Shown here piece after piece: positions 34,101 through 37,100 of a DNA stretch of 64,000 nucleotides (the first letter of the stretch is position 1; each line of letters begins with the position of its first letter). The notes beneath the pieces are model-generated. The model had not been told where the DNA came from, searched no databases, and worked only from the letters and a program-made list of their open reading frames with translations. The stretch is from NCBI GenBank assembly GCA_026874595.1, contig CM049313.1, forward strand, positions 62,619,159 through 62,683,158. The letters run 5' to 3'. The stretch comes from Sipunculus nudus (lineage: Eukaryota; Annelida; Sipuncula; Golfingiida; Sipunculidae). Position numbers and translations under genes: made by a program.

Positions 34101-37100
34101 CTGAAGGTCAGAAATCTGTCGTATTTTTATTTAAGAGTTTTGAAATTTCTAATTTTGCTAATAAAGTAACTTACAGCATGAGACCGAGGCCGATAGTCCG
34201 GAACGAGGCTGTAATAAGCAGTGGGAGGTACCCGGATAAGATGTCCTTTGTGTTTTGATACGCTTCATGTAACACAAATTTGTTTACCACAAAATTCACT
34301 TGGGACATCATAAAGTAAAGTGCCACTGCGGAACCTGTTGAAAAACAATATTACCTTTATGTTTTCCTGTTAAATATTCAGTCAAAATGATATATAAACA
34401 GGTATATATTCTTTTTTGGACCCATCAACCATTTTTTATACATTTTGTTTTTTATTTGGATACGGATGGATGAAATAATGCAATCAAACCACGTCATTTC
34501 TCATTCTCCAGTTGTATGATATTCAGCTCTAGTGTACACAGAAATAACTATTAATCAAGGGATAAGAAACGGCGAAAACTCTTACCTTGTTCATTTTGTC
34601 GAACTTGCTGTGACAGGATCGAAATGCTGATTGGAACCAGCGCGAAGGAGAAACAGCCAAACCAGGGCACTGTTAAAACAAACCAGACAGACAGGGCACT
34701 TCTAAATCAAGCACAGGGCGTCATTTTAACAAATTCAGGGCACTGTCAAACAAACCAAAAAGCCAGGGCACTGTTAAAAAGCTCCAGGATTGTATAACAC
34801 AAGCTGGAAATTGTTGAAACTAAGTCACGGCACTGTTAAAAAGGCCAAGTCATTGTTAAAACTGTATAAAACATAGCCAGGACACTGTTAAAACAAGGTC
34901 AGGGCACTGTTAGCACGTAGCCGTGTTATTGTTAAGTCGAAGACGGGACAAGATTAGGACACTGTAGAAAACAAGATCAGGACACTGTTAAAACATTATC
35001 AGGGCACTGTTAAAACATGATCAGGGCACTTAAAAAATCAAGATCAGGGCACTGTTAAAACAAGATCAGGGCACTGTTCAAACAAGATCAGGGCACTGTT
35101 AAAACAAGATCAGGGCACTGTTAAACAAGATCAGGGCACTGTTAAAACAACATCAGGGCACTGGTAAAACTTGATCAGGGCACTGTTAAAACAAGATCAG
35201 GGCACTGTTAAAACATTATCAGGGCACTGTTAAAACAAGATCAGGGCACTGTTAAAACACGATCAGGGCACTGTAAAAACAAGATCAGGGCACTGTTAAA
35301 ACCAGTCCAGGGCACTGTGAAAACCAGTGCAGTGCACTGTTAGAACAAAGCTAAGGATTGTAAAAACAAGACTAGGGCACTATTAAAACAAGATCAGGCA
35401 CTGTTAAAAAATGGCCAGGGCAGTGTTAAAAACAAGATCAGGGCACTGTTAAAAGATCAGGGCACTGTTAAAACAAGATCAGGGCACTGTTAGAACAAAG
35501 CCAAGGATTGTAAAAACAAGGACATAGGCATTGTTAAAACATGGCAAATTAATTGTTGAAACTGAGTCAGGCTATGTTAAAACAAGGCCAGGTTTATGTT
35601 GAAACAAGACTAGGGTACTGTTAAAACAAGATCAGGGCACTGTTAAACAAGGCCAGGGCACTGTTATAACAAGACCAGGGCACTGTTAAAACAAGATCAG
35701 AGCACTGTTAAAACAAGACCAGGGCACTGTTAAAAGATCAGGGCACTGTTAAAAGATCAGTGCACTATTAAAAACAAGATCAGGGCAGTGTTAAAAACAA
35801 GATCAGGGCACTGTTAAAAGATCAGGGCATGTTGAGACTAAGCCAGGGTATTGGTAAGACAGCCAGAACATTAACACCTAGCCAGGGTATTGTAAAGACC
35901 AAACACTGTTAAAACTAGGTCAGGTCACTGTTAAAGCATAGGCCAGGGCATTAAAACCTAGCCAGGGTATTGTTAAGACTAAACACTGTTAAAACTAGGC
36001 CAGGTCACTGTTAAAGCATAGGCCAGGACATTAAAACCTAGCCAGGGTATTGTTAAGACTAAACACTGTTAAAACTAGGTCAGGTCACTGTTAAAGCATA
36101 GGCAAGGACATTAAAACCCAGCAGGGTATTGTTAAGACTAAACACTGTTAAAACTAGGTCAGGTCACTGTTAAAGCATAGGCCAGGCTACTGTTAAAACA
36201 AGACCAGTGCACTGTTAAGACAAAGCCAGGTAACTGTTAAAACGAGGTCAGGGCATGTTGGGACTAAGCCAGGGTATTGGTAAGACAGCCAGGACACAGT
36301 TAAAACATATCTAGGGTATTGTTAAGACTAAGACAGGGCACTTTTAAAACTAGGTCATGGCACTGTTAAAACTAAGCTATGGAAATGATAAAAGAAGACC
36401 AATGGTAATGACAATGGTAATAATAGGCCAGGGCATTGTTTAAGACTAAACCAGGGCAACATTAAGGCAAAGCCAGGGGACTGTTAAAACAAAGCCAATG
36501 CACTGTTAAAAGTAAGCCATGGCACTGTGTAAGCTAAGCTATATGGCACTGTCAACATAAGGCCATGGCACGGTTTAAAAGTAACATCGGCACTGATAAA
36601 TCAGTCTGGTAAAAAAATCAACGTTCGCATGACTAGAAATGACAAAAATGTAGAGTGAAAAATGATATAGAAAATAACTGAACGATGAACAACAAGTACG
36701 GCGCCCCCTTAGTAAATCATTAACAAACAAGGCATATGGTCAATATGATTATAAAATGTAATGCTTTTGATTCTGCAGTTAAAGAGGCATTTGTTTAACA
36801 TTTTGGAGAAAACAGGGATAATTTTAGATCGTTAAAAAGTAGTTAAAAATAAGTGGCGCCCCCTGCAGTTGACAATCATCTATCAGACTCATTACTAATA
36901 AGATATATAGGGAGCCCGATGGGGGAAAGGGCACGTTATCGTACTGTTTTAATAGTCTTCCCTACCTCGGCGGGAAACCTACGCTATAAACACTTTAGAA
37001 GAATTGCGTAATTACTAATTTACTAATATCTTTCATATTTAAGATTCTTCAAAGATAATCACATTTTAAAGCCAAATGAAGCACTGGTAAATTTAGGCAA

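Follow-up and report, generated by a model that had tools for sequence, protein, structure and literature searches.

The first intron of a predicted transporter gene of Sipunculus nudus contains a minisatellite of 22-bp units, which extends for 1.94 kb in register with the acceptor of exon 2 and with the first 8–12 bases of that exon. Our current working hypothesis, to which we give a probability of roughly 0.7, is that this array is what has been called a 'mirage', in which the intron–exon boundary of the gene itself has been amplified in tandem, and that it would be near-neutral and leave splicing normal. The direct basis for this reading is the anatomy of the array, the failure of the genome search to find matching units at any other place, and the position of the intron in paralogous genes; from these we infer the order of events, the splicing outcome and near-neutrality.

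The gene is located on the minus strand of the window (the whole stretch of 64,000 nucleotides that was analysed), and its four proposed exons form one open frame of 476 residues. The predicted product is an SLC46/PCFT-like MFS transporter, whose substrate may be folate or another SLC46 substrate. In a profile search the Pfam MFS_1 domain spans residues 1–458 (E 3.9e-11; 42.9 bits against a cut-off of 33.4). Among sequences of solved structures, only the proton-coupled folate transporter PCFT (PDB 7bc6 and 7bc7; E 5.4e-22 for 7bc6) was matched at E up to 1, and the alignment, covering residues 88–447, crosses both the exon 1–2 and the exon 2–3 junctions. Matches to paralogs back exons 1–3, exon 4 being proposed from frame and acceptor alone. 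The parts of the gene are:

37242..38370, minus strand: exon 1, from the ATG to the phase-1 C, with donor GTGAGTA; Pfam and PDB matches
34670..37241, minus strand: intron 1, 2572 bp, of which the array takes up about three quarters; exon reading and wraparound alignment
34586..34669, minus strand: exon 2, 84 bp; frame, array alignment and tblastn to paralogs
34175..34334, minus strand: exon 3; frame and paralog matches
33639..33696, minus strand: proposed exon 4 with a TGA stop; open frame and AG acceptor only, without homology

Re-reading of the sequence agreed with the preliminary description of this DNA in that exon 1 has a phase-1 end, with C as its last base, and that the exon 1–2 junction reads CTG CCC TGG; exon 2 is directly preceded by TTTTAACAG. 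A short 24-bp array (38805–38892; 3.7 copies by TRF) is located approximately 435 bp upstream of the start codon of the transporter.

The minisatellite beside exon 2, previously put at about 85 copies, was borne out, with 89 complete units of period 22. Its principal parts are:

34670..36609, minus strand: minisatellite of 89 complete 22-bp units, with the minus-strand consensus TGCCCTGATCTTGTTTTAACAG; wraparound alignment
34961..35835, minus strand: homogenised core of 40 units, with a mean identity of 19.5 of 22 and TGA in 27 of 40
35862..36186, minus strand: higher-order 80-bp repeat inside the array, 4.1 copies, 95% matches; TRF
36191..36592, minus strand: distal degenerate zone, 17 units, consensus TGCCCTGGCCTTGTTTTAACAG (TGG, exon-like)

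Wraparound alignment to the consensus unit runs from 36609 through the acceptor to 34658, about 12 bases into exon 2, in 91 segments of which 89 are complete, and its score of 2198 compares with at most 92 in ten dinucleotide shuffles; TRF splits the same array into several overlapping rows. One unit consists of about 12 bases like the end of the intron (TTGTTTTAACAG-like) and about 10 bases like the start of the exon (TGCCCTGGT-like). The first eight bases of exon 2 are identical to some array units, with a weaker match continuing to about base 12. Exactly 22 nt were counted in 46 of the 89 units. Mean identity to the consensus is highest in the core, compared with 15.7–16.8 of 22 in the other three zones; these statistics take in 87 of the 89 units, and the consensus resembles the core, so that the comparison favours it.

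The protein search listed 38 matches, from which those paralogs that reach 40% identity, five in number (40–46%; L053–L057), were compared. All five are on the same contig, and they are not independent of each other. Every one of them has a phase-1 junction after exon 1, and its exon 2 opens behind an AG at the same codon, with the residues VPVFG or VPVVG at that point. The start of exon 2 is CAG followed by TGCC in three paralogs (L053, L054 and L057), with TTCC in L055 and TACC in L056 in place of TGCC. No array comparable to that of the transporter gene was found at the homologous acceptor in any of the five loci (TRF, score 50 or more). Because the five paralogs have the same intron position and phase, three of them the same CAG and TGCC, and none an array, the acceptor may be taken as ancestral and the array as derived; most simply, then, the acceptor would predate the array. 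Two origins had been offered in the preliminary description, growth of the array out of the acceptor and capture of the last unit by the exon, and it is the former that is better supported by paralogs which share the intron and lack the array, while the latter may apply to exon bases 5–7.

Those three bases (CTG, giving Trp) match the array units, and none of the three matches in any of the five paralogs, all of which encode Val, while 49–57 of the remaining 81 bases of exon 2 are identical to the paralogs (60–70% alike). The change from Val to Trp is a hint that there may also have been flow from array to exon. A reverse or two-way flow, in which array sequence took the place of the opening codons of exon 2 through conversion or slippage, is nevertheless unlikely in our view as an account of the structure as a whole: bases 1–4 (TGCC, as in three of the five paralogs) and TTTGG at bases 9–13 (identical in L053 and L057) are paralog-like, so that few bases at most can have been replaced, and three consecutive changes are not improbable at the divergence of this exon from its paralogs.

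According to the mirage hypothesis, the array would have arisen in the transporter gene after its split from close SLC46-like paralogs, by tandem duplication of about 12 intronic and about 10 exonic bases, as in the mirages of amphioxus, and slippage or unequal exchange would then have lengthened it in the upstream direction, further into the intron. Both edges of the array would then have degenerated, and the core would have been re-homogenised, with a change from TGG to TGA there. The most likely fate of the RNA would be normal splicing, in which the array leaves with intron 1; occasional use of an array acceptor would yield transcripts with premature stops. Support for the mirage hypothesis comes from the diverged edges and uniform core, from a frame that stays open over the four proposed exons, and from the PCFT alignment through the junction.

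The array had been described as copies of a splice site each carrying a stop codon, and this proved to be overstated, since in-register counts gave TGA in 37 of 89 units and TGG in 20 of 89, and the consensus of the distal zone has TGG, the same as the exon. Likewise, the AG acceptor attributed to every unit is present in register at the end of 57 of the 89 units and absent from the rest. The exact sequences TGCCCTGA and TGCCCTGG occur 25 and nine times, respectively. By zone, the counts of TGA and TGG are 27 and 7 in the core (40 units), 4 and 1 in the exon-proximal zone (13 units), 3 and 4 in the higher-order zone (17 units) and 3 and 7 in the distal zone (17 units). The stop codon is incidental; it is most frequent in the homogenised core and is not a fixed feature of the unit. 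We read TGA as probably derived from TGG and spread in the core. The view that TGG is the older is supported by the consensus of the distal zone only; the exon-proximal units do not favour TGG, and their counts argue against TGG units near the exon being the oldest. Units with TGA and units with TGG showed no significant difference in divergence elsewhere in the unit (P=0.15).

Within the array there are 90 AG dinucleotides, 85 of them YAG, the true acceptor being counted among the 85. When joined to exon 1, a stop follows within 9 nt after 36 of the 85 YAG sites, compared with 15% of array positions generally; the distance of 119 listed for the true acceptor has no meaning, as there the reading continues into the following intron, which is unspliced. 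Tracing of stops covered the 84 array YAG sites, leaving out five non-YAG AGs, and from the distances listed all 84 run into a stop before exon 2. A stop after every array YAG carries little further meaning, because a short repeat which contains stops and whose length is not divisible by three gives that anyway.

Candidate acceptors were scored with a matrix built from 12 family acceptors, themselves inferred by homology or frame, with the true site left out. The true acceptor scored 11.4, compared with a median of 2.5 for the 89 array AGs, one of which was at or above 11.4. Leave-one-out scores of the training acceptors ranged from −0.25 to 12.96, and 60 of the 89 array AGs exceeded the lowest of these; AGs above that level have a density of 30.9 per kb in the array, compared with 11.6 per kb over the remainder of the window. 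Ranked by T fraction, the true acceptor is number 3 of 83 YAG sites, but it is not set apart by pyrimidine fraction (44 of the 83 sites at or above it), by the length of the longest pyrimidine run (80 of 83) or by its distance from the preceding AG (17 of 83). The branch-point-like motif CTRAY is also frequent in the array (19.1 compared with 3.8 per kb). The array is thus rich in weak to fair acceptors, with the true one near the top by one measure. Judged by this small family matrix, in which it outranks 88 of the 89 array AGs, the true acceptor is probably not equivalent to the array units. Exon definition would be expected to favour an acceptor with a good donor at a distance of 84 nt. Since the T tract of the exon 2 acceptor surpasses that of nearly all units, and its donor lies only 84 nt away, normal splicing is most likely; the array is probably spliced out harmlessly with intron 1, and most likely has no function or a slight one. 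Overall, the preliminary description is confirmed in part as to what it observed, and its interpretation is supported in part.

It is possible to see in these same figures a field of acceptors competing with the true one, each use of which leads to a stop, so that the productive fraction of the mRNA is determined by copy number. The stop reached from all 84 YAG sites, the abundance of AGs above the weakest family acceptor and the density of CTRAY are what such competition would predict, but we consider it improbable: the in-register AG survives in 57 of 89 units and column 22, at 0.69, belongs to the less conserved columns, which gives no sign of selection for keeping acceptors, the stops are expected in any such repeat, and the true acceptor outranks nearly all of its supposed competitors. 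One may further speculate that nearly 90 copied, locus-private acceptors would act as a length-dependent brake, splicing into them producing short transcripts that are destroyed, such that array length would set transporter output and array instability would generate heritable or somatic variation; to this we attach very little weight.

A 30-base pattern, allowing up to three mismatches, was matched 26 times in the 1.43-Gb assembly, each time inside the array, and a reversed-pattern control had no matches in the same assembly; the pattern reaches the better-kept units only, and diverged copies elsewhere could be missed. The genome-wide occurrence of the same array, which the preliminary description had named as evidence against its own reading, was thus not seen. 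A 301-base search gave 13 matches, 11 of them in the array and one each on C2 and C7 at 73–75% identity; these two are arrays of different unit length (23 bp on C2, 24 bp on C7), and a genome-wide repeat family was rejected on these grounds. The C2 array (L009, 4809–5498) has 30 copies of the 23-bp unit CCAGTGTCCTGAACATATTTCTA with 95% matches, and has CAGTGYCCTGA in common with the transporter unit; no exon was recognized by eye at its edges, and the surroundings of the C7 array were covered by TRF only. TRF on 35 loci (L023–L057) returned 31 rows, although these loci overlap and some contain the transporter array itself. An unrelated intronic minisatellite that ends at the acceptor by chance is highly improbable, for, although C2 and C7 carry arrays, outside the transporter gene, whose units are similar in part, the register and eight exact exonic bases coincide with the acceptor and the 30-base pattern did not find the unit elsewhere, and chance neighbourhood of exon and array was rejected accordingly.

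Two papers describe mirages in the amphioxus genes for Adh3, the globins BflGb6 and BflGb9, troponin C and PGBD5 (PMC3087553, PMC3902484). In common with these, the transporter array consists of minisatellite-like tandem duplications spanning an intron–exon boundary (PMC3087553, PMC3902484), has a splice signal in many but not all of its units, and is homogenized within the cluster, in its inner units, and not at the boundary. RT-PCR suggested no interference of the amphioxus arrays with splicing (PMC3087553). Length instability among alleles or cells is a further mark of mirages; the transporter array is represented by one assembly, in which a single place was found for it. In BflGb6 the 3' end of the intron and the 5' part of the exon are repeated, and the transporter array is likewise composed, but it is longer (89 units, compared with six and three in the BflGb6 haplotypes), and its 22-bp unit compares with 10–72 bp in Adh3 and 150–160 bp in the globins. 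It is, moreover, in another gene and in a genome of 1.43 Gb, which is larger than that of amphioxus. Structures of this kind are already known from amphioxus genes, mirages being reported from cephalochordates, and the transporter array is notable for its length; among the titles of open-licence papers listed, none was recognized as describing an acceptor-copy minisatellite outside amphioxus.

In another case of repeated splice sites, the gene is reportedly IFI6/6-16. A title cited in two papers (PMC2572611, PMC2915984) tells of a minisatellite that provides splice donor sites in a transcript induced by interferon, so that there too, as far as the title goes, a minisatellite gives repeated splice sites in one gene, the sites being donors in that transcript and putative acceptors here. 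In human paralogs, internal tandem repeats at exon–intron boundaries can alter splicing (PMC2812944). There too the genes are duplicated and minisatellites lie at their splice boundaries, where novel introns may be formed from them (PMC2812944); the transporter intron, by contrast, is shared with paralogs and its position is kept. The present array is a long example of a minisatellite made by multiplication of a splice boundary, and the array-less paralogs suggest that the acceptor came first. It offers a natural test of how a single acceptor is chosen by the spliceosome when dozens of near copies are present, and of whether arrays of this type move the start of an exon or make expression vary.

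Other repeats were observed in the window. Tandem arrays at 29388–31705 and 52781–53237 have consensus units of 339 bp and 166 bp, respectively, with nearly the same opening words (GTTAACAGGGCACAAATC...), and are perhaps members of a dispersed tandem repeat family. A 349-bp array in an intron of the paralog L054 (3418–5534) shares words, by eye, with the array at 29388–31705. The arrays at 6130–6389 and 7530–7729, approximately 1.1 kb apart, have units which look like mutual reverse complements (GCAAAAAAAAAAATTTTAGGAA, CTTCCTAAATTTTTTTTTTTG), an arrangement that suggests an inverted repeat. Frames at 14771–15019, 18008–18367, 22317–22724 and 49974–50246 resemble, by their motifs, what we take to be pieces of nicotinic-receptor-type (Cys-loop) channel genes, and those at 75–3568 and 18888–20999, in several pieces, are presumably, by eye, LINE-like reverse transcriptase frames.
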